DNA from: an uncultured Actinomycetes bacterium
GTDB lineage: Bacteria > Actinomycetota > Acidimicrobiia > Acidimicrobiales > SZUA-35
Direction: 5' to 3'
Assembly: GCA_902826025.1 (NCBI GenBank)
Contig: CADEDH010000014.1
Span: 59,833 to 94,708, forward strand
Length of the DNA stretch: 34,876 bases
Part shown: one piece after another, positions 2,121 through 15,894 of the stretch
How positions within the stretch are numbered: position 1 is the stretch's first letter
Layout: each line of letters begins with the position of its first letter
The notes under the pieces: model-generated
What the model was told of the DNA's origin: nothing
Seen by the model: only the letters and a program-made list of their open reading frames with translations
The model's database searches: none
Position numbers and translations under genes: made by a program

Positions 2121-3620
2121 TTGTCAACACGGTTCGAGTCGGGCATCCAGAGGCCCCCAACAGCGACTCGCACCAAGCCCCGCCGTACGTGGGGCCAGCG
2201 GTTCCTGATCGGTTTCGGCTTCACCGCGTCCCTGTCGTTGGTGGTCGCCGCCCTCGGCCTCACCTACACGCTCAACCGCTACCGCAGCATCACCTTCCTC
2301 AAGGTGCCCACGGTGGAGTCGGCGCCTCCTGGTGAGCCGGTCAACTGGCTGCTCGTCGGGTCCGACTCCCGGGAGGGGATAGACCCCAACGATCCCAACG
2401 CCGGCGCGTTCCTGGGCGAGAAGGTCAACGGCAAGCGTACCGACACGATCATGCTGGCCCGGATCGATCCGGCCAACCACATGGTCGATCTCCTGTCGAT
2501 CCCGCGTGACCTGTGGGTGCCGATCGCCGGGACCGACGGCAACAACCGGATCAACTCCGCCTTCAACGCCGAGACCGGTGGCGGTGAGCAACGGCTCGTC
2601 TCCACGGTGGAAGACGTGCTGGGTGTTGAGGTCAACAATTACGCCGAAGTCAACTTCGTCGGCTTTCAGCAGATCATCGACAGCCTGGGTGGGGTGCCGA
2701 TCTACTTCTCCACCCCGGTGCGCGACACCCACTCCGGGCTCGACGTCAAGACCGCCGGCTGTCACGTGCTCGACGGCTCCCAGTCGCTGGCCTTCGCCCG
2801 CAGCCGGTATCTGGAGTACCAGCAGAACGGCAAGTGGAAGAGCGACATCACCAGTGATCTCGGCCGTTCGGCCCGCCAGCAGTACCTGATCACCCGCATC
2901 GCCGACCTGTCGAAGCAGTCGCTCGACCTCACCAGCCTGGGCACGATCAACGACATCCTCACCATCGGTGGCCGCAACCTGGTGATCGACGACGGCGCCT
3001 CGGCCAAGGAGCTCTACAACCTGGCCCGCACGTTCTCCGGTGTGGGCAGCGAGGGCATCCGTCGCCACGCCCTGCCGGTGAGCGAGTTCCGCACGGGCGG
3101 TGGCGCCGATGTGCTGCGGCTGAACGAGGCCGAAGCCCAGGCCACGCTCGACATCTTCCGGGGTCGGGTACCGGTCGATCCCACGCAGCCCCCGTCAACC
3201 GACACGGTGGCCAAGGACAGCTTCGCCATCGGGGTGCAGAACGGGGCCGGCATCTCGGGCCTGGCCAAGTCGTCGGCCACCGACCTGGAGACCGCCGGGT
3301 TCCAGGTCGACCAGATCGCCGACGCGCCGGCACCGGTCGACTTCACCACCGTGCGCTACCCCAGCCGCCTGGCTGCCGGAGCCTCGGTGCTCGGCACCAG
3401 CCTGGCCGTGGCCCCCCACTACGAGCAGGACAACACGCTCAAGAGCGTGCAACTCGTGTTGGGCCCCGACTACGACGGGTTGGGCACCGGCACGCCGGCG
3501 TCGCCCACCACCACGGCCGCCCCCGCTATCACCACGCCACCACCGACGCCGGAGAACGAGAACATCGTCGGCATCGTGCCCGGGCCCGGCCCCGCCGGCA
3601 CCCCCTGCGCCGCCACCTGA
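2121..3620 (+). CDS. LCP (LytR-CpsA-Psr) family glycopolymer transferase
   Basis: This is a 499-residue membrane-anchored LCP protein. The family transfers undecaprenyl-linked glycopolymers (teichoic acid, arabinogalactan, capsule) onto peptidoglycan on the outer face of the membrane. A basic cytoplasmic tail is followed by one membrane segment at about residues 28-50. The LCP core then shows NWLLVGSDSR (75-84), RTDTIML (106-112), SIPRDLWVPI (126-135) and AFARSRY (224-230), including the Arg/Asp residues that bind the pyrophosphate lipid. A LytR_C-type domain follows at about 375-455, and the tail is Thr/Pro-rich. The start is TTG with GGGAG eight bases upstream; no ATG or GTG fits better. 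It sits beside a polysaccharide locus, so ligation of that polymer to the wall is a reasonable inference. Confidence 0.93.
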   Translation: MSTRFESGIQRPPTATRTKPRRTWGQRFLIGFGFTASLSLVVAALGLTYTLNRYRSITFLKVPTVESAPPGEPVNWLLVGSDSREGIDPNDPNAGAFLGEKVNGKRTDTIMLARIDPANHMVDLLSIPRDLWVPIAGTDGNNRINSAFNAETGGGEQRLVSTVEDVLGVEVNNYAEVNFVGFQQIIDSLGGVPIYFSTPVRDTHSGLDVKTAGCHVLDGSQSLAFARSRYLEYQQNGKWKSDITSDLGRSARQQYLITRIADLSKQSLDLTSLGTINDILTIGGRNLVIDDGASAKELYNLARTFSGVGSEGIRRHALPVSEFRTGGGADVLRLNEAEAQATLDIFRGRVPVDPTQPPSTDTVAKDSFAIGVQNGAGISGLAKSSATDLETAGFQVDQIADAPAPVDFTTVRYPSRLAAGASVLGTSLAVAPHYEQDNTLKSVQLVLGPDYDGLGTGTPASPTTTAAPAITTPPPTPENENIVGIVPGPGPAGTPCAAT

Positions 3621-3633
3621 GGCTCCGAACCCG

Positions 3634-3680
3634 GAACTCTGACGTCGGGGCCCGCTTTCGGCCACGCCGTGTCAGAGTTC
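3634..3680. terminator. Bidirectional stem-loop between LCP gene and cysC
   Basis: GAACTCTGAC (3634-3643) and GTCAGAGTTC (3671-3680) form a perfect 10-bp stem, with further pairing of CGGGGCC and GGCC inside the 27-base loop. It lies between two convergent genes, and its right arm covers the last codons and stop of cysC. It could end transcription from both sides. There is no T-run. Confidence 0.55.
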
Positions 3681-4274
3681 GCTTAGAAGCGTGAGCAGCC
3701 GGGCGGCCATGGCTGCCGGGGCGCCGTCGGCCGGGGTGAGCACCAGCTCGGGGGACAGTGGCGCCTCGTAGGGGTCGTCGATGCCGGTCATGCCCCGCAG
3801 CTCACCGGCCCGGGCCCTCGTGTACAGGCCCTTGGGATCGCGCCGTTCGCACTCGGCCAGCGGAGTGTCCACGAAGACCTCCAGGAACGGCAGGTCGGCG
3901 GCGTCGTGGAGCCGGCGGGCCAGGCTCCGGGCCGCCCGGTACGGGCTGATCAGGGGCACGATGGCCACCACCCCGGCGTCGGCCAGGAGCCGGGCCACGT
4001 GGGCCACCCGGCGCACGTTCTCGTCGCGATCGGCGGCCGAGAACCCCAGGTCGCCGTTGAGGCCCTGGCGGAGGTTGTCGCCGTCGAGCAGATAGGCGGC
4101 CCGACCCCTGGCCACCAGCTGGCGTTCCAGCTCCACCGCCACCGTCGACTTCCCCGACCCCGACAGCCCGGTCAGCCACACCGTTGCGCCCGGACCGCCG
4201 GTGGCCTGGGCACGGCTGGCCCGGTCAACGGCGCTGGGGTGCCAGACGGTGTTCTCGGAGACGGGGTCGGTCAC
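3672..4274 (-). CDS. cysC: Adenylylsulfate (APS) kinase
   Basis: This 200-residue enzyme phosphorylates APS at the 3' position to give PAPS, the donor for sulfotransferases and for PAPS reduction. The P-loop is GLSGSGKS (36-43). LDGDNLR (63-69) supplies the APS-site residues, and [22 protein letters not shown] and [14 protein letters not shown] are the family lid and substrate motifs. Nothing is missing. The start is GTG, seven bases after the cysN stop, so it is the last gene of a cysD-cysN-cysC operon. In many bacteria CysC is fused to CysN; here it is separate. No PAPS reductase, sulfite reductase or sulfotransferase is seen in the window. Confidence 0.96.
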
Positions 4275-4281
4275 GCCCCGC

Positions 4282-5535
4282 TCACTCGGTGCCGACGATC
4301 ATGCCGGCGGCAACCGTGACGTTGGTGGCCTCGTCGACCAGGATGAAGCTGCCGGTGTTGCGGTTGCGCTGGTAGTCGTCGGCCATCAGCGGCTGGGTGG
4401 TGCGCAGCCGGACCCGACCGATCTCGTTGAGGGCCAGGCTGGTGGCCGACTCGTCGCGGTGCGAGGTGTTGATGTCGAGCCGGTAGCGGAGATCCTTCAC
4501 CATGGCCCGGGCCCACCGGGTGGTGTGCTTGATGGCCAGCTTGGCTCCCGGCAGCAGGGGTGTCGTCTCCGACATCCAGCACACCATGGCCTCCAGGTCC
4601 TGGGTGACGGCGGGCCGATTGTTGGGTCGGCACAGCATGTCGCCCCGGCTCACGTCGAGGTCGTCTTCCAGCAGCACGGTGACCGCCATGGGGGCCACGG
4701 CGGCGTCGACCGGGCCGTCGGCGGTGTCGATCCGGGTGATGCGGGTGCCGAAGCCCGAGGGGAGGGCGATCACCTCGTCGCCGGCCCGCAGCATGCCGCC
4801 GGCCACCGTGCCGGCGTAGCCGCGGTAGTCGTGGTGCTCGGTGCTCTGGGGCCGGATCACGTACTGCACCGGGAACCGCACGTCCACCAGGTTGCGGTCG
4901 GACGCGATGTAGACCTCCTCCAGGTGGTGGAGCAGGGTGGACCCCTTGTACCAGTCCATGTTGGCCGACCGGTCGACCACGTTGTCGCCGTGGAGGGCCG
5001 ACAGCGGGATGAACGTGAGATCCCGGAAGTCGAGCCGGCTGGCCAGCTCGGTGTACTCGCGCTTGATGTCGGTGAAGACCTGCTGGTCCCAGCCGACGAG
5101 GTCCATCTTGTTGATGGCCACCACCACGTGGGGGATACGCAGCAGGTTGGCGATGTAGGAGTGGCGCCGGCTCTGCTCCAGGATCCCCTTGCGGGCGTCG
5201 ACCAGGATGATGGCCAGATCGGCGGTGGAGGCCCCGGTGACCATGTTGCGGGTGTACTGGATGTGCCCCGGGGTGTCGGCGATGATGAACTTGCGGTTGG
5301 GGGTGGCGAAGTACCGGTGGGCCACGTCGATCGTGATCCCCTGCTCCCGCTCGGCCCGCAGGCCGTCGGTGAGCAGGGCCAGGTTGGTGTGCTCGTCGCC
5401 CCGGCTGGCGCTGGTGGCCTCGATGGCCTCCAGCTGATCCTCGAAGATCGACTTCGAGTCGTACAGCAGGCGCCCGATGAGGGTGCTCTTGCCGTCGTCG
5501 ACGGAGCCGGCGGTGGCCAGGCGAAGCAGGTCCAT
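4282..5535 (-). CDS. cysN: Sulfate adenylyltransferase large (GTPase) subunit
   Basis: CysN is the regulatory GTPase of ATP sulfurylase; GTP hydrolysis drives formation of APS from ATP and sulfate with CysD. The 417-residue product is an EF-Tu-like GTPase with G1 GSVDDGKST (10-18), G3 DTPGH (87-91) and G4 NKMD (142-145), followed by two beta-barrel domains. It ends without a fused APS kinase. The ATG at 5535 shares one base with the cysD stop (TGATG), which indicates translational coupling. A longer upstream reading in this frame overlaps cysD and has no family similarity, so it was not used. Confidence 0.96.
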
Positions 5536-6443
5536 CAGAAGTACCCCTCCTTCTTGCGGTCTTCCATGGCCGCTTCGGTTGTGCGATCGTCGGCCCGGGT
5601 GGCCCCCCGCTCGGTGATGCGGGTGGCGGCGATCTCGTCGATCACGGTGTCGATGTCGGCGGCCGAGGACTCGACGGCGCCGGTGCAGCTGGCGTCGCCA
5701 ACGGTGCGGAAGCGCACCAGCCGGTCCTCCGGCGTCTCGCCCTCCATCACGGTGACGTAGGGGGTGACGGCCAGCCACATGCCGTCGCGGGAGAACACGG
5801 AACGGCGGTGGGCGTAGTAGATGGAAGGCAGCTCCAGGTTCTCTTCCCGGATGTAGTGCCACACGTCGAGCTCGGTCCAGTTGGAGATGGGGAACACCCG
5901 GATGTGCTCGCCCTGGCGGTGGCGGCCGTTGTAGAGGTTCCACAGCTCGGGCCGCTGGGCCTTGGGGTCCCACTGGCCGAACTCGTCGCGGAAGCTGAAG
6001 ATCCGCTCTTTGGCCCGGGCCTTTTCCTCGTCTCGCCGGGCGCCGCCGAACACGGCGTCGAAGCGGTGCTCCTCGATGGCGTCGAGCAGGGTTGTGGTCT
6101 GGAGCCGGTTGCGGGAGGCCCGGGGCCCGGTCTCCTCGGCCACCCGACCGGCGTCGATCGAGGCCTGCACCGAGGCCACCACCAGGCGGACCCCGGCCTC
6201 GGCCACCCGACGGTCGCGGTAGTCGATCACCTCGTCGAAGTTGTGGCCCGTGTCCACATGCATCACCGGGAACGGCACCGGCGCGGGGTGGAAGGCCTTG
6301 ATGGCCAGGTGGAGCATCACGATCGAGTCCTTGCCCCCCGAGAACAGCAGCACCGGCCGCTCGAACTCGGCCGCCACCTCCCGGATGACGTGGATGGCTT
6401 CGGACTCCAGCATCGACAGATGGCTGAGCTGGGTGGTTGACAT
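5535..6443 (-). CDS. cysD: Sulfate adenylyltransferase small subunit
   Basis: CysD is the catalytic subunit of the CysDN ATP sulfurylase and belongs to the PP-loop N-type ATP pyrophosphatases. At 302 residues it has the family's usual length. The PP-loop is LFSGGKDS (33-40). Other matching stretches are MHVDTGHNFDEV, GGARRDEEKARAKER and FPISNWTELDVW. The ATG at 6443 has GAGAGGAAG just upstream and gives the canonical N-terminus; the open frame continues upstream but into unrelated sequence. It is the first gene of the cysDNC operon. No cobalamin, SAM or other riboswitch was recognised before it. Confidence 0.96.
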   Translation of the reverse strand: MSTTQLSHLSMLESEAIHVIREVAAEFERPVLLFSGGKDSIVMLHLAIKAFHPAPVPFPVMHVDTGHNFDEVIDYRDRRVAEAGVRLVVASVQASIDAGRVAEETGPRASRNRLQTTTLLDAIEEHRFDAVFGGARRDEEKARAKERIFSFRDEFGQWDPKAQRPELWNLYNGRHRQGEHIRVFPISNWTELDVWHYIREENLELPSIYYAHRRSVFSRDGMWLAVTPYVTVMEGETPEDRLVRFRTVGDASCTGAVESSAADIDTVIDEIAATRITERGATRADDRTTEAAMEDRKKEGYF

Positions 6444-6624: not shown

Positions 6625-8223
6625 ATGTCCGACGGCTCGTCTTCAGTTGTACGACTCAGCGAGTACAGCCGGGTCCTGCGGCGCGGGGCCCGGGTGATCG
6701 CCGGTGTGGCCGTGATCGGGGCCATGGTCGGCACCGCGCTCGTGGCCAGCCAGCCCCGTCGGTACGAGACCGTGGCCACGGTGGAGGTCCGGCCGATCGT
6801 GTCCCGCCAGGACGACCCCAACCTCGATCTCTCCCGCCAGGTCGATCCCGAGACCGAGGTGGCCATCGCCCGCTCGTTGCGGGTGGCCGAACGGGCCCTG
6901 GCCCTGCGTGCGGCGGCCACCGAGCTGGGCCGGACCGACCTGGAGTCCGTCGAGGTGGCCGAACTGGCCGCCACCCTGGTTCCCGCCCCCGAAGTGGCCC
7001 GTACCGACATGGCCGGCCTGGAGGTGACGGTCGTCGACGACTCCACGATCCTCAAGTTCCACGCCACCGCCGCCGACGCCCGCGGCGCCCAGCTCCTGGC
7101 CCAGTCGAGCGCTCTGGCCTACCTGGCCTTCCGTCAGGAAGAGGCCACCGCCGGCGCCGCTGAGTCGCGGGCCCGCCTGGAGGCCCGCGAGGCCGAGCTG
7201 CTCACCGCCCTGGCCGCCATCGACAACAGCGCCACGGCGGCCGACGCCCAGGCCCCGGCCGCCATCGACACGGTGCCGGTGGCCGCCCTGCCCTACGCCG
7301 CGGTGGCCAAGCGCCAGGAGTTGGTGGCCATCGGTTCCACCTACGCCAATCTGGCCGCCCTGGCCATCGACCCCGGTGTGGTGCTGACCGACGCCGTCCT
7401 GCCCACCACCACCCAGGGCCTGCCCCTCTACGCCGGGCCGGTGATGGGCCTGATGCTGGGCCTGATCGGCGCCCTGACCGCCGTGTTCGTGCTCGACCGC
7501 ACCGACGACCGGCTCCGGTCGGGTCGGGTGGAGCTGAGCGCCCTCGGCGTGCCCGTGCTGGGCAACGCCCCGGTGGCGGCCAAGCGGGGCACGCTGGTGG
7601 ACAGCGGCGGGGTGTACCCCAGCAGCAGCCCGGCCGGCGATGCCTATCGCCGTTTGCAGGGCAGCCTCCTGTTCACCCTGGAGCACGACTCCCGCAGCGT
7701 GGTGCTGGTGGCCGGTGTCACCAGCGCGGCGGCCGCCACCACCGTGGCCGCCAACGTGGCCGTCACCGCCGCCCGCTCGGGCCGCCGCACCCTGGTGGTG
7801 GGGGCCGACCTGCGGCGCAACGGGCTCGCCCCCCGCTTCGGCCTGTCGGGGGGCAAGGGCCTCAGCGACGTGGTGGTCGACGGGGCCAGCCTGGCCGAGT
7901 CGATCCGGGCCGTGCCCGGGGTCGACAACCTGTCGGTGCTGGGCGCCGGCACCCGCCTCGACCGCCCGGCGGCCGTGCTCCAGAGCGAGGCCCTGGCCCG
8001 CCTGTTGGCCGCCGTAGAGGCCGACTTCGACCTGGTGATCGTGGAGGCCGCCCCCATCCTGGAGGTGGCCGACGCGGTGGACGTCGCCCGCTTGTGCCAC
8101 GGCTCGGTGGTGGTGGTCGACGCCGCCACCGAGACCCGGGCCGCCATCGCCGACTCGGTGGACCAGCTCCGCAGTGTGGGGGCCGACGTGGTGGGCGTCG
8201 TGGTGGCCGACGCCGACCGCTGA
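6625..8223 (+). CDS. Wzz/BY-kinase-like protein, nucleotide motifs degraded
   Basis: This 532-residue protein has the layout of a polysaccharide co-polymerase fused to a bacterial tyrosine kinase. There is a membrane segment at 24-41, an extracytoplasmic Wzz-like region with an Ala-rich helix at about 160-200, a second membrane segment at 268-290, and a cytoplasmic CpsD/Wzc-type P-loop fold (about 335-530). The usual catalytic motifs are altered. The Walker A, normally like TSxxPGEGKST, reads VTSAAAATTVAANVA (365-379) and has lost the GxGK lysine. Walker A' reads VVGADLRR, with Gly for the first Asp. Walker B reads VIVEAAP, with Glu for Asp. There is no C-terminal tyrosine cluster. It therefore probably does not hydrolyse ATP or autophosphorylate and may act only in chain-length control. 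The start is ATG, with AAAGG upstream. It heads the polysaccharide locus. Confidence 0.85.
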   Translation: MSDGSSSVVRLSEYSRVLRRGARVIAGVAVIGAMVGTALVASQPRRYETVATVEVRPIVSRQDDPNLDLSRQVDPETEVAIARSLRVAERALALRAAATELGRTDLESVEVAELAATLVPAPEVARTDMAGLEVTVVDDSTILKFHATAADARGAQLLAQSSALAYLAFRQEEATAGAAESRARLEAREAELLTALAAIDNSATAADAQAPAAIDTVPVAALPYAAVAKRQELVAIGSTYANLAALAIDPGVVLTDAVLPTTTQGLPLYAGPVMGLMLGLIGALTAVFVLDRTDDRLRSGRVELSALGVPVLGNAPVAAKRGTLVDSGGVYPSSSPAGDAYRRLQGSLLFTLEHDSRSVVLVAGVTSAAAATTVAANVAVTAARSGRRTLVVGADLRRNGLAPRFGLSGGKGLSDVVVDGASLAESIRAVPGVDNLSVLGAGTRLDRPAAVLQSEALARLLAAVEADFDLVIVEAAPILEVADAVDVARLCHGSVVVVDAATETRAAIADSVDQLRSVGADVVGVVVADADR

Positions 8224-8235
8224 CGGGCCCACGCT

Positions 8236-9591
8236 GTGACTGTGACCGTGTCCCCGGCCACCACCGGCAACCCGGCCGGGCCCGCCGGTTCGGCCGGCGG
8301 ATCGGTCGGCGGATCGGTCGGCGGTTCGGTCGGTGTCTACCGGGCCGAGGCGGCGGCGCCCCTGCCCCACTGGCCCCTCACGTTGATGGTGGCGGCCTAC
8401 CCGGTGTGGTTCCTCCTCGGGCTCAGCGGGTTCATGTGGGTGGCCCTGGCCTTCCCCATGGCCGGAGCTCTGCTCCGGCGGCGGGGGCTGGTGGCCCCCC
8501 GGGGTATCGGCTGGTGGGCGCTGTTCCTGGCCGCCGTGGCGGCCTCGGTGGTGAGCATCGACTCGGTGTCCCGCATGGCCGGCTACGTGCTCCGCTTCGG
8601 CTACTACGGGGCGGCCACCGTGTTCCTGCTGTATCTGCTGAACGGGGGCGACGGGGTGCCGGTGCGGCGCATCGTGCGGGCCTTCAACCTGCTGTGGGTG
8701 TTCGCCATAACCGGCGGGTACCTGGCCCTGGTGTTGGGGGCGTTCACCTTCCGCTCGCCCATGTGGTACCTGCTGCCCGGGCCCCTGCTCGACAACGACC
8801 TGATCCACACGCTGGTGACGCCGGGCTTCGCCGACGTGCAGGACATCATCGGGTTCCCCGTACCCCGGCCCAAAGCCCCGTTCGCCTACACCAACTCGTG
8901 GGGGTCGATGGTGGCCCTCACCACCCCGTTCGCCCTGGCCGCCCTGGCCAATCCCCGCATCGGGCTGTCGCCCCGGGTGATCCGCTGGGTGCTGGTGGCG
9001 GCGGTGATCCCCATGGTGATCTCGCTCAACCGGGGCCTGTGGCTCAGCCTCGGGCTGGGTCTCGTCTACGCCGCGGTCCGCCTGGGGATGGGCGGGCACC
9101 GGCGCCTGTTCGCCCGTCTGGTGGTGTCGGGTGTGATGCTGGCGGCGGTGCTGGTGCTGTCACCCCTGGGCGGGCTGGTCACCTCCCGGGTGGAGACCGG
9201 CCACTCCGACCACGACCGCGAGGGCCTGGCCATGGCCGCGGTGCACGGCGCCCAGGAGCGGCCCCTGTTCGGTTGGGGGGCGCCCCGGCCCAACGTGCGT
9301 GACCTGCCGTCGATCGGTACCCACGGCCAGATCTGGCTGGTGACGTTCTCCCACGGCTTCGTGGGGGCCGCCGGTTTCGTGGGGGCCCTGGTGTCGTTCC
9401 TGTGGTGGACCCGGCGCCAGGTCACCACCACCGGCCTGTGGGCCCATGTGGTGGTGCTGGTGGGGATCATTCAGCTCCCGTTCTACCTGATGATCCCGAA
9501 CGCCCTGTTCGCCGTGATGGCGGGGGTGGCCGTCGCCCTCCGTTGCCAGCGGGAGCCGGTCGACGGCGAGCCCGTCGCCTCGCCTGTCTGA
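8236..9591 (+). CDS. O-antigen ligase / Wzy-like membrane protein
   Basis: This 451-residue polytopic membrane protein has about ten hydrophobic segments. A large extracytoplasmic loop lies around residues 175-225, and a second loop carries SRVETGHSDHDREGL and RPLFGWGAP. The SLNRGLWLSL stretch and the short GWG-type motif after it are typical of the Wzy_C/O-antigen ligase family, which polymerises or ligates lipid-linked glycans on the outer membrane face of the cytoplasmic membrane. Ligase and polymerase cannot be told apart from sequence. The start is GTG, 12 bases after the upstream stop, so it is probably co-transcribed with the BY-kinase-like gene. The N-terminal 35 residues are Gly/Ser/Val-rich and come from a 12-bp tandem repeat. 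Confidence 0.82.
   Translation: MTVTVSPATTGNPAGPAGSAGGSVGGSVGGSVGVYRAEAAAPLPHWPLTLMVAAYPVWFLLGLSGFMWVALAFPMAGALLRRRGLVAPRGIGWWALFLAAVAASVVSIDSVSRMAGYVLRFGYYGAATVFLLYLLNGGDGVPVRRIVRAFNLLWVFAITGGYLALVLGAFTFRSPMWYLLPGPLLDNDLIHTLVTPGFADVQDIIGFPVPRPKAPFAYTNSWGSMVALTTPFALAALANPRIGLSPRVIRWVLVAAVIPMVISLNRGLWLSLGLGLVYAAVRLGMGGHRRLFARLVVSGVMLAAVLVLSPLGGLVTSRVETGHSDHDREGLAMAAVHGAQERPLFGWGAPRPNVRDLPSIGTHGQIWLVTFSHGFVGAAGFVGALVSFLWWTRRQVTTTGLWAHVVVLVGIIQLPFYLMIPNALFAVMAGVAVALRCQREPVDGEPVASPV
8296..8331 (+). repeat. Three tandem 12-bp units in Wzy-like gene
   Basis: The unit GGCGGATCGGTC occurs at 8296-8307 and 8308-8319, with a one-base variant at 8320-8331. It encodes a GGSV repeat in the cytoplasmic N-terminus. 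Because the unit is a multiple of three, copy-number change would keep the frame. Confidence 0.85.
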
Positions 9592-9600
9592 GCCCTCCTG

Positions 9601-10845
9601 ATGGCCTCCGACCTCGGCCCAACTGCGCCACGAAAACCGCGCCCCCCGAGCGATCTGCGTCACGTTTTCGACGGATTCCGGAGACTTCGCGACGCAGATC
9701 CGTGGCCGGGCGCGATTTTCGTCGCGCAGTTCGGGCGGCGCCGTCCCGCGGCCGTGGTCGTCGCCGGCGCCCTGCTGGTGGCGGGCTGCGGCGGATCGAC
9801 GACCGGCTCGGCCGGCGGAGGTACGGCGACCACGGGCCGGTCGACCGCCGGCGGGGCCGGGTGGACGGCGGCCGACGGTTCGATCGTGGTGGGGGGCGAG
9901 GCCGGGGCCCCCGATCCCGCCGGTGCGCTGGGTGGCCCCCGACCGGATCGGGCGGCGCCGCTGGGCATGGCGGTCGATGCCGACGAACGCCGGCGAATCG
10001 AGGATGCCACCGGCGTGGCCCTGCCTGTGGTTCGGGTGTTCGCCCGCTGGGACAGCCCGTTCCCCACCGCCGAGCAGCAGGCCCTGCTCGACGCCGGCCG
10101 GATCGTGCACCTGTCGGTCCGGCCCCGCACCGACGGCGGCCGCCGCATCGGCTGGGCCGACGTGGCCGCCACCGGGGCTGGCACCCCGCTCGGGGACGAG
10201 ATCGACCGATGGGCGCAGACGATCGGGGAGGCGGCCGAGCAGGCGGCAGCCAACGGCGGGCGGCTTTACCTCACGTTCAACCACGAGCCGGAGGCGGCCG
10301 ACAGCGACGGGTACGGCACCGCCGCCGACTACCGGGCGGCGTGGCGGGCCATGGTGGGTCGAATCCGTCTCGCCCCGGGTGGGGCCGGAGTGCGGACCGT
10401 GCTGGTGCTGAACCGGGGCACGTTCGCCTCGGGGGAGGCTGAGGCCTGGTGGCCCGGCGACGACGTGGTCGACGTGGTGGGGGTGGACGCCTACAACTGG
10501 TTCGACTGCCAGGCCGCCCCCGGCGCCCCCAGCCGGCCCTGGGCGGCTCCGGCCGAGCTGCTGGCCCCGGCTCTGGCCTTCGCCCGGGCCCACGGCAAGC
10601 CGCTGGCCGTGCCCGAGATCGCCTCCACCGAAGACCCGGCCGACCCGTCGGCCAAGGCGGCGTGGATCCTCGAGCTGGCCCGCACGCTGGCCGACCCCGC
10701 CGTCGCTCCCGATATCGAGTACGCCGCCTGGTTCCCCGCTCACGACCCCGCCTGGCCCCGTTGCCGTTGGGCCTGGGACTCGAGCCCGGCCTCGTCGCTG
10801 GCCATGGCCCGGGCCCTGGCCTGGCTGGCCGGCCCGAACTCCTGA
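9601..10845 (+). CDS. GH26-like glycoside hydrolase lipoprotein
   Basis: This 414-residue product is a secreted lipoprotein with a (beta/alpha)8 hydrolase domain. A signal segment RRRPAAVVVAGALLVAGC ends in a lipobox with Cys63. A Gly/Thr linker follows, then a domain resembling GH26 (beta-mannanase and related endoglycanases). LTFNHEPEA carries the likely acid/base E229, and LAVPEIAST the likely nucleophile E339. Beta-strands such as VDVVGVDAYNW lie between. The ATG at 9601 adds about 44 residues before the signal peptide, encoded by a long palindrome, and has no good ribosome site. No ATG, GTG or TTG lies closer to the signal segment; an ATT at 9715 is the only nearby alternative. A role in trimming or releasing the polysaccharide made by this locus is inference. 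Confidence 0.78.
   Translation: MASDLGPTAPRKPRPPSDLRHVFDGFRRLRDADPWPGAIFVAQFGRRRPAAVVVAGALLVAGCGGSTTGSAGGGTATTGRSTAGGAGWTAADGSIVVGGEAGAPDPAGALGGPRPDRAAPLGMAVDADERRRIEDATGVALPVVRVFARWDSPFPTAEQQALLDAGRIVHLSVRPRTDGGRRIGWADVAATGAGTPLGDEIDRWAQTIGEAAEQAAANGGRLYLTFNHEPEAADSDGYGTAADYRAAWRAMVGRIRLAPGGAGVRTVLVLNRGTFASGEAEAWWPGDDVVDVVGVDAYNWFDCQAAPGAPSRPWAAPAELLAPALAFARAHGKPLAVPEIASTEDPADPSAKAAWILELARTLADPAVAPDIEYAAWFPAHDPAWPRCRWAWDSSPASSLAMARALAWLAGPNS
9617..9736. repeat. 120-bp imperfect palindrome inside a gene start
   Basis: Outer arms 9617-9644 and 9708-9736 pair over about 28 bases, with one bulge and two mismatches. Inner arms GATCTGCGTC (9652-9661) and GACGCAGATC (9691-9700) pair perfectly, around a loop that pairs partly. 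The element falls in codons 6-46 of the GH26-like gene, upstream of its signal peptide. It could be an inserted mobile palindrome, a regulatory RNA hairpin, or both. Confidence 0.8.
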
Positions 10846-10854
10846 CCTCCGGGA

Positions 10855-12387
10855 TCAGCGGCGCCCGATGGAGCTGAGGCCCAGCAGGCGGCGCCAGCGG
10901 GCGGCCCACAACACGTAGAGGGGGCCGGCGACGGCCGCCGCCACCAGCAGACCGGTGAACGTGTCGGGGGTCGACAGGCCGATCGGCACCACGGCCCCGA
11001 CGGCCCCCGCCGCCGCCACCAGGGCCGGGCGGCCGAACGAAACGGTACCGCTGGTCCGCCGCACCAGGGTGGCGGCCGTGAGGTTCTGGGCCATCACGGC
11101 CAGACCCCAGGCCACCGCGGCGCCCATGAGGCCGAAGCGGGGAATGAGCAGCCAGGCCAGGGTGAGGTCGATGGTCAGGGCCAGGGCCACCGCCGCCAGC
11201 GAGGCCCGGCTGCGGCCCAACATCAACAGGGCCAGGTCGGCCGGGCCGACGGCCGAGCACACGAGCATGCACAGGGCCAACACGGTGAGCGCCGCCCCGT
11301 GTCCGGCGAACTCGGGGTTGGCCAGGCCGAGGAAGGTGTCGGGCTTGGTCGCCACCGCCAGCAGGTAGGGCCACACGATCAGCACCATCCACCCCGTGGC
11401 CTGCTGGAGCAGCCGGCGGCCGGCCGTCGGGTCACCCCCGCCCAGGGTGCGGCGCAGTCCCGGTCCGCAAGCCTGTCCGATGGAGAACACGAGGAAGTTG
11501 CCGGCGGTGATGTAGCGCGAGAGGGCGGAGTAGATCCCGGCCACGGCTGGTCCGGCCAGGGCCGACACCAGCACCACGTCGAGCCGTTCCAGGGCGATCT
11601 GGAGGGCCGTGGCGAACGACCGGGGCCGGGTGTATGACCAGAACTCGGAGCCCGGCACCGGCGACGGGCCCGACCCGACCAGGCCCCCCTCCCGCCACAG
11701 GATCACTACGGCGGCCACCGCGCCGGCCACCACCGGGACGCTCCAACCGGCGGCCACCAGCCACGGCGGCGGATGCTCGGTGGTGAGCAGCACCGTGCCC
11801 ACGCCCACGAGCTGGCCCATGGGCCGGCCCACCTGCTGCACCGCCACCGTGGGCACCATCGACCCCAGGCCCCGGGTGGCCCCCAGGGCGCTCATCGTGA
11901 GGGCCCAGGCCGGCACGGCGGGCGACAACACCCGCAGCATCTGGGCCAGCTCGTCACCCCGGCTGCCGGCGATGGCGTTGCCCACCACCGGGGCTGCCAC
12001 CAGCAGTAGCCCGCCGCCCAGGAGGCCGGCCACCACCACCGGCCCCAACGCCACCTTCACCAGGCCGCGTGGGTTGGGGCCCGGCTCGGCCGCTCGGGCC
12101 ACCGGCATGAAGTACACGAGACCGGTCATCGTGCCGAGGCCAGCCGAGTTGCCCAGCACGATCACGAGGGCGGTGGCTGAGAAGAACAGGCCGGCCAACA
12201 CGGCCCCCACGTGGGCCACCAGGAACAGTAGCCCGAAGTTGTTCACGGTGGTGACAACGGCCCCCACCAGGGCCACGCCGGTGGCGGCGCCGGCCGACTG
12301 GTCGGCCCGGGGCGGCGCCCCCCATCCACCTCCGGCGGAAGGGGCGGTGCCGGTGGCTCCGGCCCGGTCGGCGACGGTGGTGGTCAT
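10855..12387 (-). CDS. Wzx-like polysaccharide flippase (MATE/MOP type)
   Basis: This 510-residue polytopic protein has about 12 to 14 hydrophobic segments spread over its length, as in the MOP superfamily (Wzx, PST, MurJ) that flips undecaprenyl-linked repeat units across the membrane. Typical features are the repeated Gly/Ala-rich helices, SFATALQIALERLDVVLVSA at about residues 255-275, AVAGIYSALSRY, and IPRFGLMGAAVAWGLA near 415-430. The first 30 residues are a Gly/Pro-rich cytoplasmic tail. The start ATG has AAGGTGG upstream. Its stop is only 9 bases from the end of the convergent GH26-like gene, with no clear terminator. The substrate cannot be read from sequence. Confidence 0.85.
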   Translation of the reverse strand: MTTTVADRAGATGTAPSAGGGWGAPPRADQSAGAATGVALVGAVVTTVNNFGLLFLVAHVGAVLAGLFFSATALVIVLGNSAGLGTMTGLVYFMPVARAAEPGPNPRGLVKVALGPVVVAGLLGGGLLLVAAPVVGNAIAGSRGDELAQMLRVLSPAVPAWALTMSALGATRGLGSMVPTVAVQQVGRPMGQLVGVGTVLLTTEHPPPWLVAAGWSVPVVAGAVAAVVILWREGGLVGSGPSPVPGSEFWSYTRPRSFATALQIALERLDVVLVSALAGPAVAGIYSALSRYITAGNFLVFSIGQACGPGLRRTLGGGDPTAGRRLLQQATGWMVLIVWPYLLAVATKPDTFLGLANPEFAGHGAALTVLALCMLVCSAVGPADLALLMLGRSRASLAAVALALTIDLTLAWLLIPRFGLMGAAVAWGLAVMAQNLTAATLVRRTSGTVSFGRPALVAAAGAVGAVVPIGLSTPDTFTGLLVAAAVAGPLYVLWAARWRRLLGLSSIGRR

Positions 12388-12466: not shown

Positions 12467-13726
12467 TCATGGCGTGGTCCGTAGGCGCCGGGCCAGGAGA
12501 TCGGTGGCGGCAGGGGCCAGGTCGGCCAGTGGGCTGGCCCAACGCTGCCCGTCGAGCCGGCGCTCCCTCGTGATCAGCTCGCAGAGGTACAGATCGACCA
12601 GGGCGGCCAGCCGGCGGCCGGTCAGCTCCCGGCGCAGGGGGGCGAGCACCGACGGGGCGTCGACGATGGCGGCGGTCAGGGCGTCGACGGCGGAAGCGCC
12701 GGGTCGACGCCGGTGCTGCTCGAACCGGTGGTGGAGCAGGTCGAGGCCAACCGGGCGGCCGGAGCCGGCCAGCTCCCAGTCCCAGACCCAGGTGGTGCCG
12801 CCCCGGACCGTGAGGTTCCAGGGGGTGAGGTCGCCGTGCCACAGGCCGGTGGCCAGCTCCACCCCGGAATGGCGTTCGGTCAGCCGGTCCAGGTCCACCG
12901 ACTGGCCCAACCCTGCCGCCGCCCACGGGCCGAGCAGGGGGAGGGAGGCCACCGGGCGGGGGGCGGCCGGCTCGCAGGCGGCGATGGCCGCCGCCACCGG
13001 GGCCAACCCGGTGGGGTCGGCGGCAGCGGGCGCCCCGCCGCTTCGGGTGGGGCCGGCGGGCCGCAGCGGGGACAGCACGGCGACCGACCGGCCGTCCCAT
13101 CGGTCGTGCAGGAGCACCGAAGGGGCCACCACGACGGCGGGGTCGAGGCGCCCGGTCACCAGGCGGAGCACGTCGGCCTCGTTGTCGACCAGCTCGGCCG
13201 TGAGGGGCGACCAGCCGATCTTGGCGAACCCGACCACCGACCCGTCGGGCCGGATCAGCTGGAGCACAGGCTTGCGGTTGCGACGCCGGGGCCCGAGCGT
13301 GATCGCCACCGCCAGCTCGGGCTCAGCCAGGGCCCGGGCCAGGTGGTCGACCAGGGCGAACGGGGGCAGGGCGAGGCGGATGGCGCCCGGGAGGCGACCG
13401 AGCAGCCCGGCCCGGCCGGCCAAGCGCGCCACAGCCGCCTGCGCCTGGCGGGACAGGCTCCGGTCGTCGCCCAGGCGGTGGAGGGCAGCGGCGGTGGCTG
13501 GCGCCGGGCGGGCCGGCGCCAGGAAGCGCAGCTCGCCCCCGGCCACCCGGGCGGCCAGGTAGGGGACCGGCTCCGCCCCGGGGACGACGCCCAGCACCTC
13601 GGCCAGCCAGTCGATGTCATCGGCCACCGCCCCGTCGGCCGAGGCCCGCCGCCGGCCGTCGCTCAGGGGAGCCAGGCGGCGGCGTCGATCGGCGGCACGG
13701 ACGAGCACGTCGGGGGAGGGGGCCAT
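12467..13726 (-). CDS. APH-fold small-molecule kinase
   Basis: This 419-residue protein has an aminoglycoside-phosphotransferase (choline-kinase-like) fold in its C-terminal two thirds. The catalytic set is complete: FAKIG with K169 for ATP, E183 in NEADVL, the Brenner loop HGDLTPWNL (D299, N304) and the metal-binding D316 in WDWEL. The first 140 residues are Arg/Ala-rich and not recognised. It lies 79 bases upstream of the Wzx-like gene on the same strand, inside the polysaccharide locus. Phosphorylation of a sugar or of a lipid/nucleotide precursor is thus more likely than drug resistance. The ATG start is preceded by a hairpin instead of a clear ribosome site. Confidence 0.8.
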   Translation of the reverse strand: MAPSPDVLVRAADRRRRLAPLSDGRRRASADGAVADDIDWLAEVLGVVPGAEPVPYLAARVAGGELRFLAPARPAPATAAALHRLGDDRSLSRQAQAAVARLAGRAGLLGRLPGAIRLALPPFALVDHLARALAEPELAVAITLGPRRRNRKPVLQLIRPDGSVVGFAKIGWSPLTAELVDNEADVLRLVTGRLDPAVVVAPSVLLHDRWDGRSVAVLSPLRPAGPTRSGGAPAAADPTGLAPVAAAIAACEPAAPRPVASLPLLGPWAAAGLGQSVDLDRLTERHSGVELATGLWHGDLTPWNLTVRGGTTWVWDWELAGSGRPVGLDLLHHRFEQHRRRPGASAVDALTAAIVDAPSVLAPLRRELTGRRLAALVDLYLCELITRERRLDGQRWASPLADLAPAATDLLARRLRTTP

Positions 13727-13730
13727 CGTC

Positions 13731-13751
13731 GTCCCGTCGGCAGAACGGGAC
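13731..13751. promoter_or_regulatory. Palindrome between APH-fold and ALG14-like genes
   Basis: GTCCCGT and ACGGGAC form a 7-bp inverted repeat with a 7-base centre. It starts four bases upstream of the APH-fold gene's ATG and lies about 65 bases before the divergent ALG14-like gene. It could be an operator serving both genes or a leader hairpin. No known regulator site was recognised. Confidence 0.35.
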
Positions 13752-13817
13752 GGCGGTGGAGCATTCGGCCCGGTCCGGGCTCAGGTTCCGGCCGCCGGTG
13801 GCCGATACCGCTGGGCG

Positions 13818-14327
13818 ATGGCGTTGCTGGCTCCCTCCGACCCGACCTCGACCCCGGGAACCGCTCCCGGCCGCCGGCTGAAGGTCCTGTTCGTCTGCTC
13901 CTCCGGCGGGCACCTGTCGCAGCTGCTCCAGCTCCGACCGTGGTGGGAGCAGCACGACCGGCGCTGGGTCACCTTCGACCTGCCCGACGCCCGCTCCAAG
14001 CTCACGGGCGAGGTGCTGATCCCGGCCCATCACCCCACCACCCGGAACCTGCGGAACCTCGTCCGTAACGTGCCGCTGGCCCGGCGGGTGCTGCGAGAGT
14101 ACCGGCCCGACGTGGTGGTGTCGGACGGGGCCGGGGTGGCCGTGCCCTTCTTCGTGCTGGCCCGGGCCGACCACATCCCCACCGTGTACCTCGAGGTCTA
14201 CGACCGGATCGACAGCCGCACCCTCACCGGGCGTCTGTGCCGGCCGTTCACCACCCGGTTCCTCGTCCAGTGGCCCGAACAACAAGCTCTCTACCGGGGC
14301 TCCGAGCTGATCGGTCCCCTCTATTGA
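13818..14327 (+). CDS. ALG14-like glycosyltransferase subunit (PssD type)
   Basis: This 169-residue protein corresponds to the N-terminal half of a GT28 glycosyltransferase. In eukaryotes Alg14 anchors Alg13 to form UDP-GlcNAc transferase; bacterial pairs (PssD/PssE, CpsF/CpsG, EpsE/EpsF) add a sugar to the lipid-linked repeat unit. The signature SSGGHLSQ (28-35) comes after the first beta-strand. RPDVVVSDGAGVAVPF and the PTVYLEVYDRID segment are also typical. The ATG at 13818 was chosen because family similarity begins about 20 residues later; an upstream ATG at 13614 would overlap the divergent kinase gene with unrelated sequence. Its stop overlaps the TTG of the ALG13-like gene. Confidence 0.85.
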   Translation: MALLAPSDPTSTPGTAPGRRLKVLFVCSSGGHLSQLLQLRPWWEQHDRRWVTFDLPDARSKLTGEVLIPAHHPTTRNLRNLVRNVPLARRVLREYRPDVVVSDGAGVAVPFFVLARADHIPTVYLEVYDRIDSRTLTGRLCRPFTTRFLVQWPEQQALYRGSELIGPLY

Positions 14328-14878
14328 GCCGGCAGCTCCCGCCCCCGCTGGTGGTGGTGTCGGTGGGTACCGATCACCACCGCTTCGATCGCCTGGTCGG
14401 ATGGATGGACGATTGGGCCGCCCGCCACCCCGACGTGCGGGTGGTGATCCAGCGAGGGGGCGCTCCCGACACTGCTCACGCCGAGAGCGCCCCTTTGATC
14501 CCCTACGACGAGCTTCGGGCCCTGTTCGCCCAGGCCACCGCAGTGGTGAGCCACGGCGGCCCGTCCACCGTGATGGACGCCCGGGCCGCCGGCCGGATTC
14601 CGGTGGTGGTGCCCCGCGACCCGGCCCACGGCGAGCACGTCGACGGCCACCAGATCCGCTTCGGTCACCACCTCCGCCGATACGCCCTGGCCACGGTGGC
14701 CACCACCCGCGACGACGTGGAGGCGGCGGTGGAGGCGGTGCTGGCCGACCCCGACCGTTACTCCGTGCCGGCGGCCCTGGCCGACCTGCCGGGCGTTGTC
14801 GCCTTCGGCGACGTGGTGGATGACCTGTTGGGCCTGCCCGCTGTCACGATCGCCGAGGCCCGCCGGAGGAACCGATGA
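14324..14878 (+). CDS. ALG13-like glycosyltransferase subunit (PssE type)
   Basis: This 184-residue product is the C-terminal, UDP-sugar-binding half of a split GT28 glycosyltransferase. It begins with the beta-strand LVVVSVGTDHHRFDRL. The conserved donor-binding stretch VSHGGPSTVMDA is followed by PVVVPRDPAHGEHVDGHQ. The TTG at 14324 overlaps the upstream stop (TTGA), which is a strong sign of coupled translation with the ALG14-like partner; an ATG at 14237 in the same frame would intrude 90 bases into that gene. The pair should form one membrane-associated transferase. The sugar is unknown. Confidence 0.86.
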   Translation: MSRQLPPPLVVVSVGTDHHRFDRLVGWMDDWAARHPDVRVVIQRGGAPDTAHAESAPLIPYDELRALFAQATAVVSHGGPSTVMDARAAGRIPVVVPRDPAHGEHVDGHQIRFGHHLRRYALATVATTRDDVEAAVEAVLADPDRYSVPAALADLPGVVAFGDVVDDLLGLPAVTIAEARRRNR

Positions 14879-15894
14879 GCCCGGCCCGGCCCGGCGTCGA
14901 AGCAGTGCCCGGCTCGATCGGAGCCGACGGGATGGCCGAGACCGACGAGGCCGCCCTGGCCGACCGTTCGGTGTCGGTGGTGATCGCCACCCGGGACCGG
15001 CCTCAGCTGCTGAGCCGGGCCATCGACGCCGTGCTGGCCCAGGCCTTCCCCCATCGCCTCGAGATCGTGGTGGTCTTCGACCGCACCGAGCCCGACCTCG
15101 GCCTGGAGCGCTTCAGGCCCGAGGACGGCGGTGACGGCGGTGACGGCGAGCGGCGGGTGCGGGTGATCGCCAACACCCGGTCCCCCGGCCTGGCCGGGGC
15201 CCGCAACTCGGGCATCGCGGCGGCCCGCCACGCCTGGGTGGCCCTGTGCGACGACGACGACGAATGGCTGCCGGGCAAGCTGGCAGCCCAGCTCGATGCC
15301 CTGGCCGCCACCCCCGGCGCCCGGGCCGCCTGCACCGGCGTGTTGATCCGGTACGAGGGCACCGACACCCTCCGCCGGCCCGATCCGGCCAAGCTCACCT
15401 ACGGCGGCTTCCTCGACGACCGCATGACCGAGGTCCACCCGTCGAGCTGGCTCGTCCACCGCCGAACGCTGGTCGAGCTGATCGGCCCCGTGGACGAGGA
15501 CATCCCCGGCAGCTACGCCGAGGACTACGACCTGTTCCTCCGCACCGCCCGGGTGTGTCCGATCGCCGTGGCCGACGAACCCCTGGTGCGGGTGTGGTGG
15601 CACGGGGCGTCGTTCTTCTTCGAGCGGTGGCGCACCATCGACGAGGCCCTCGACTACCTGGTGGCCAAGCACCCCGACTTCGCCCGCCACCCCCGGGGTC
15701 TGGCCCGCATCCTGGGCCAACGAGCGGTGGCCCAGGCCGCCATGGGTGAGCGGCGCCGAGCGGTGGCCACAGCCGGGCGGGCCCTGCGGCTCAACCCGCT
15801 GGAGAAGCGGGTACCGGTGGCCCTGGCGGTGGCGGCCGGCCTTCCCGCCGGTACCGCCCTGCGGGCCGCCCACCGCCTGGGCAAGGGGATCTGA
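14875..15894 (+). CDS. GT2-family glycosyltransferase
   Basis: This 339-residue GT-A inverting glycosyltransferase begins after a 30-residue linker. VSVVIATRDRP (33-43) is the first strand, GLAGARNSGIAAA is the nucleotide-side loop, and CDDDDEW (125-131) carries the DXD metal site. GSYAEDYDLFLR carries the ED catalytic-base motif typical of GT2. The C-terminal 70 residues are Arg/Ala-rich helices. The ATG overlaps the ALG13-like stop by four bases (ATGA), so the three transferase genes form one operon. It most likely extends the repeat unit; donor and acceptor cannot be inferred. Confidence 0.9.
   Translation: MSPARPGVEAVPGSIGADGMAETDEAALADRSVSVVIATRDRPQLLSRAIDAVLAQAFPHRLEIVVVFDRTEPDLGLERFRPEDGGDGGDGERRVRVIANTRSPGLAGARNSGIAAARHAWVALCDDDDEWLPGKLAAQLDALAATPGARAACTGVLIRYEGTDTLRRPDPAKLTYGGFLDDRMTEVHPSSWLVHRRTLVELIGPVDEDIPGSYAEDYDLFLRTARVCPIAVADEPLVRVWWHGASFFFERWRTIDEALDYLVAKHPDFARHPRGLARILGQRAVAQAAMGERRRAVATAGRALRLNPLEKRVPVALAVAAGLPAGTALRAAHRLGKGI

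Follow-up and report, generated by a model that had tools for sequence, protein, structure and literature searches.

The locus described here raises the question of what becomes of a polysaccharide co-polymerase when the tyrosine kinase domain fused to it has lost its catalytic motifs. In the standard model, PCP-2 co-polymerases require cycles of Tyr phosphorylation and dephosphorylation for polymer production. In the window (the whole stretch of 34,876 nucleotides analysed here, from an uncultured member of the Acidimicrobiales), the open reading frame at 6625-8223 (+) was originally predicted to encode a BY-kinase-like protein with an intact frame and fold but degraded nucleotide motifs, that is, a retained pseudokinase.

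The predicted Wzz-plus-CpsD layout, in which two membrane segments are followed by the P-loop fold, was confirmed by hydropathy, an AlphaFold model and structural matches (Table 1). The frame is open from its ATG and coding-like, with a third-position GC of 0.95, and the frames of the orthologues are also intact, in agreement with the prediction. Using profile searches, the NCBIfam model TIGR01007 ("polysaccharide biosynthesis tyrosine autokinase") was matched at residues 341-530 with 111.9 bits (cutoff 108), and a Pfam AAA_31 match fell just below its cutoff. The Pfam Wzz match at residues 11-89, which starts before the first transmembrane helix and ends within the extracytoplasmic region, scored 21.6 bits, below the cutoff of 25.5. 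The window protein therefore has the features that define PCP-2 proteins, namely two transmembrane helices around an extracytoplasmic domain and a Wzz-like N-terminus, and by sequence its nearest solved structures are BceF, CapAB and Wzc. The AlphaFold model, built on 23 orthologues, reached a pLDDT of 84 and a pTM of 0.52, which is low, so the placing of the membrane part relative to the kinase is uncertain. The best PDB match of the kinase domain was CapA1B1-ADP-Mg (4jlv; Z 33.5, 1.5 Å, 224 residues), and the whole chain was matched from residue 9 on to full-length Wzc (7nhr; Z 32.7, 402 residues, rmsd 5.4). In the model, the full BY-kinase fold is kept despite the loss of the motifs.

Table 1 Features of the pseudokinase locus, with positions in the window.
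Feature	Position	Strand	Remarks
LCP (LytR-CpsA-Psr) protein, probable polymer-to-wall ligase	2121..3620	+	conserved in locus
cysC-cysN-cysD sulfate-activation genes	3672..6440	-	divergent; cysD start approximate
PCP-2a-type co-polymerase fused to BY pseudokinase domain	6625..8223	+	532 aa; profiles, model, orthologues
TM helix 1	6694..6750	+	residues 24-42, hydropathy; helix 22-41 in model
Extracytoplasmic region	6751..7437	+	residues 43-271
TM helix 2	7438..7494	+	residues 272-290, hydropathy; helix 270-292 in model
BY-kinase-fold (pseudokinase) domain	7507..8220	+	residues 295-532; structural match 4jlv
EX2RX2R interface motif, here DAYRRLQ	7639..7659	+	second Arg to Gln
Degenerate Walker A GVTSAAAATTV	7714..7746	+	without GxGK; Lys position 371 is Ala
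Walker A' VVGADLRR	7795..7818	+	first Asp to Gly; not diagnostic
Degenerate Walker B VIVEAAP	8035..8055	+	Asp to Glu
Wzy-type polymerase (O-antigen ligase/polymerase-like membrane protein)	8236..9591	+	Pfam Wzy_C below cutoff; synteny
Lipoprotein-like protein, weak GH26 (mannanase) match	9601-10845		conserved in locus
Wzx-type flippase candidate	10855..12387	-	homologues match MatE/Polysacc_synt
APH/choline-kinase-like phosphotransferase	12467..13726	-	orthologues match APH below cutoff; conserved in locus
Alg14-like glycosyltransferase subunit	13614..14327	+	
Alg13/GT28-C-like glycosyltransferase subunit	14237..14878	+	orthologue match
GT2 glycosyltransferase	14875..15894	+	

To judge the motif losses, we compared the 23 orthologues at the Wzx/Wzy locus (window copy included) with 48 BY-kinases encoded outside this locus in the same family. 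The Walker A Lys was found in none of the orthologues and in all 48 controls; the Fisher p value of 4e-19 for this contrast overstates independence, because the rows are related by common ancestry. In the window copy, AAAA stands in place of the GEGK of its paralogues (..xGEGKT/S.. in relatives). The Walker B Asp was present in 1/23 orthologues compared with 48/48 controls, and a Tyr in the last 40 residues, which is absent from the window protein, in 0/23 compared with 46/48. The chain ends 2-14 residues past the last strand in the orthologues and 14-64 residues past it in the controls. Thus, the predicted losses of Walker A, Walker B and the tyrosine tail all stood. The Gly in Walker A', which had been listed with them, proved to be weak evidence: the first Asp of this motif is missing in 27 of the 48 otherwise intact controls (D 21, S 19, N 5, G 2, E 1), and Ser, Asn and Cys are frequent at this site in Walker-intact Acidimicrobiales BY-kinases. 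Since a residue other than Asp is so common in Walker-intact kinases, this Gly was rejected as a sign of inactivity. One further loss can be added to those originally listed. In the EX2RX2R motif, which has a role in the ring interface (PMC3795738), the first Arg is kept in all 23 orthologues and the second is Gln in 22 and His in one, compared with Arg in 43/48 controls; the oligomer may therefore differ from that of Wzc. Of the features of active BY-kinases (Walker A Gx5GKS/T, Walker A' Phi4-D-x-D-x-R, Walker B Phi4-D-x2-P and a C-terminal Tyr cluster), none was found in the window protein, which instead combines a kept fold with missing catalytic motifs and Tyr tail, a state conserved in its orthologues and characteristic of BY pseudokinases.

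Ten of the 11 genera in the window's GTDB family (f1) have orthologues, with 41-56% identity, and in the other genus (g9) the sole version is very divergent; the carriers are uncultured Acidimicrobiales. A contig search with an alignment query yielded 24 family loci, and a single-sequence scan of the genome contigs (query P0001) found nothing. In a tree computed without the motif columns, the 23 family orthologues formed one clade with an SH-aLRT of 100. Using NG86, a simple method with which dS was near saturation in several pairs, the dN/dS of the kinase domain was 0.05-0.15 in nine close orthologue pairs, and in most pairs it did not exceed that of the membrane part. The three motif stretches were no less constrained in most of the nine pairs, and a higher dN/dS (0.33) was obtained for the window and its nearest relative, L006. 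Judged from these substitution rates, the degenerate domain is under purifying selection, unlike a decaying gene, and this selection, together with losses shared by 23 orthologues, supports the original description of the protein as a retained pseudokinase.

The genomic context of the pseudokinase is also conserved. Across the family, the order is Tag - LCP - (cysC, cysN, cysD) - pseudokinase - Wzy - GH26-like - Wzx (reverse) - APH-like (reverse) - Alg14/Alg13 - GT2. Wzy lies directly downstream of the pseudokinase in 22/24 family loci, an LCP gene is found nearby upstream in 21/24, a Wzx-like gene is present in 17/24, with several loci cut by contig ends, and about half of the loci have the cys genes beside the pseudokinase. 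The PCP-2 is thus encoded together with Wzx and Wzy, which were named from weak profile matches (Wzy_C below cutoff), membrane pattern and synteny. The divergent cysC-cysN-cysD genes suggest a sulfated polymer, and the GH26-like lipoprotein is a possible polymer-trimming enzyme. Each locus has exactly one PCP/BY-kinase-like protein. A Bac_transf-type initiating glycosyltransferase (PF02397) was not found in the window, and in the f1 genomes searched for a low-molecular-weight Tyr phosphatase (LMW-PTP) there was no match in the window or on any contig that carries the locus. The LMW-PTP genes are encoded on other contigs, several of them close to intact BY-kinases; in the window's genome (G000), such a gene at C2:128378 accompanies the intact BY-kinase at C2:130931, from which phosphatase and initiating transferase are both no more than 3 kb away. 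As a separate observation, a genome that already has one pseudokinase copy carries a second, partial copy at a contig end (L087:9001-9591; G038:C152), and this copy has cysDNC and LCP genes of its own as neighbours.

From these data, we consider it likely that the protein is the PCP-2 of a conserved Wzx/Wzy-dependent surface-glycan locus, with a fused BY-kinase domain that has turned into a pseudokinase and plays a scaffold role. Like Wzc, it would assemble with Wzy at the membrane, using the pseudokinase domain as a ring-forming scaffold, and chain length would be set by the extracytoplasmic domain. Phosphorylation-driven disassembly would be absent, ATP would probably not be needed, and assembly would be controlled otherwise, by substrate, a partner protein or turnover. 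Because selection has preserved the dead form, the usual on/off phosphorylation is probably no longer used by this pathway. In E. coli, Wzc cycles between an octamer and a phosphorylated monomer, the K540M variant, in which the Walker A Lys is replaced, is a stable octamer, and capsule production depends on the cycling (PMC8285477). Since the E. coli capsule needs this cycling, a ring that does not cycle must be compensated for in some other way. By analogy with known systems, the window protein is most likely a phosphorylation-independent co-polymerase that employs the kinase fold as an assembly scaffold. The purely structural co-polymerase suggested originally is therefore the best reading, as the protein is the sole co-polymerase/BY-kinase within its Wzx/Wzy locus.

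The original prediction also offered a decoy partner of another kinase, and such a regulatory partner would join rings with an active BY-kinase from another part of the genome, or be phosphorylated by it, and tune it. Candidates exist in the window's genome, where three BY-kinases (C2:130931, C2:140218 and C30:50541) are intact at both Walker A Lys and Walker B Asp, and a partner role of inactive kinases has been proposed in the case of CapB1/CapB2 (PMC3795738). However, the pseudokinase has neither a Tyr tail for phosphorylation nor a kinase in its own locus. In addition, three incomplete MAGs with the pseudokinase (G005, 91% complete; G010, 84%; G013, 96%) gave no match to a further intact BY-kinase, the next matches being CpaE-like and ParA-like proteins or another protein that lacks the Lys. 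Because of these three genomes, the decoy idea is weakened, and we regard a regulatory role as unlikely.

A second, distinct degenerate BY-kinase family was observed in the course of this comparison (L005, G000:C2:145403-146938 (-); L127:6091-7950). In this family, Ser or Ala replaces the Walker A Lys (RSAG[SA]TT), the A' and B Asp are kept, and in most genomes looked at the gene lies near another, usually intact, BY-kinase on the opposite strand. The L005 family is a better candidate for a decoy partner than the locus pseudokinase.

Less probable still is a cryptic nucleotide binder, in which the altered loop would bind ATP or another ligand and act as a binding-driven switch without Tyr phosphorylation. 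The replacement loop G-T-N-N-P-H/Q-S-A/T-T-T-V, common to about half of the 23 orthologues, shows conservation of its own (N in 12-13, P in 12 and S in 15 of 23), and the Walker A Ser/Thr (16/23), the second A' Asp (21/23) and the A' Arg (23/23) are retained. On the other hand, the Walker B Asp was lost along with the Lys and the glycine of GxG, and both the window copy and the orthologues closest to it deviate from the replacement loop, the window copy having AAAA at the GEGK of its relatives. Finally, a decaying gene or a local sequencing or assembly error, favoured by nothing except that motif losses in draft genomes can be errors or early decay, was rejected with near certainty, because the same losses recur in 22 other genomes, the frames there are intact, selection is purifying, and an intact GxGKS was found in 0/23 orthologues.

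Homologous loci in other families of the Acidimicrobiales were located with Wzy as an anchor, and their co-polymerases differ in motif state. Those linked to the locus in genera g13 and g154 of family f3 are intact at Walker A and B (EGKT/S and Asp, with 1-2 Tyr). Those of family f27 have Arg for the Walker A Lys (EGRT) and keep the Walker B Asp (L100, L104, L106, L110, L112-L115 and L117), which, judged from the motifs, appears to be an intermediate decay. Degenerate co-polymerases occur at homologous loci in f42, f17, f19 and genus g113 of f3, as well as in genus g9 of the window's family. Given these intact (f3 g13, g154), Lys-to-Arg (f27) and lost (f1, f17, f19, f42, f3 g113) states, one old Acidimicrobiales glycan locus might repeatedly have switched its co-polymerase away from phosphorylation cycling and into a mode without a kinase, with the P-loop of f1 becoming a conserved NNPHS loop for a new ligand or contact, an idea that we put forward tentatively and consider rather doubtful. 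The tree, from which the very divergent rows L005 and L118 were left out, requires three changes of Lys state, one of them in the non-locus protein L053, and its deep forks are unsupported. In family f90 of the same class, two proteins (L133:1847-3418 and L134:5365-6936) were observed to have an intact Walker A (DGKT) and Glu in Walker B.

Compared with known systems, the window protein shows several similarities and differences. First, EcpK of Myxococcus xanthus was proposed, from genetics, interaction data and modelling, to be a phosphorylation-independent scaffold for EpsV (PMC12004946). EcpK/EpsV and HfsB/HfsA of Caulobacter share with the window protein a BY-kinase fold without Walker A, A', B and Tyr tail, and belong to a Wzx/Wzy pathway, as here. 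However, EcpK and HfsB are separate proteins of Gram-negative bacteria, whereas here the domain is fused to the co-polymerase, the host belongs to the Acidimicrobiales and the locus contains LCP. Second, fused PCP-2/BY-pseudokinase proteins, such as S. meliloti SMc01795, are attributed to Cuthbertson et al. in the same paper (PMC12004946). As described there, these combine a co-polymerase and a degenerate kinase domain in one polypeptide, as here, and the examples are proteobacterial; the likeness to the window protein is one of description. Third, the active PCP-2a and PCP-2b systems (Wzc, CapAB and BceF) have the same fold, membrane layout and TIGR01007 profile, but the window protein is without their catalytic motifs and Tyr tail, and no phosphatase was found at its locus. 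Fourth, CapB1 of S. aureus, like the predicted pseudokinase here, is inactive, with no detectable autophosphorylation, but it retains the active-site residues that the window protein lacks (PMC3795738). Among open-access papers, nothing relevant was found on BY-kinases of Acidimicrobiia or Actinobacteria.

In conclusion, BY pseudokinases are a known kind of protein, and so are versions fused to a PCP. What our comparison adds is a lineage-wide, locus-specific and selected pseudokinase in Acidimicrobiales, together with homologues in related families that, at the same locus, are intact or partly decayed. The EcpK-type phosphorylation-independent class would thereby be extended to Acidimicrobiales. 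In addition, these homologous co-polymerases form a natural series from intact to dead kinase inside one bacterial order, and such a series can be used for a direct test of whether polymer assembly needs the kinase fold or its chemistry.
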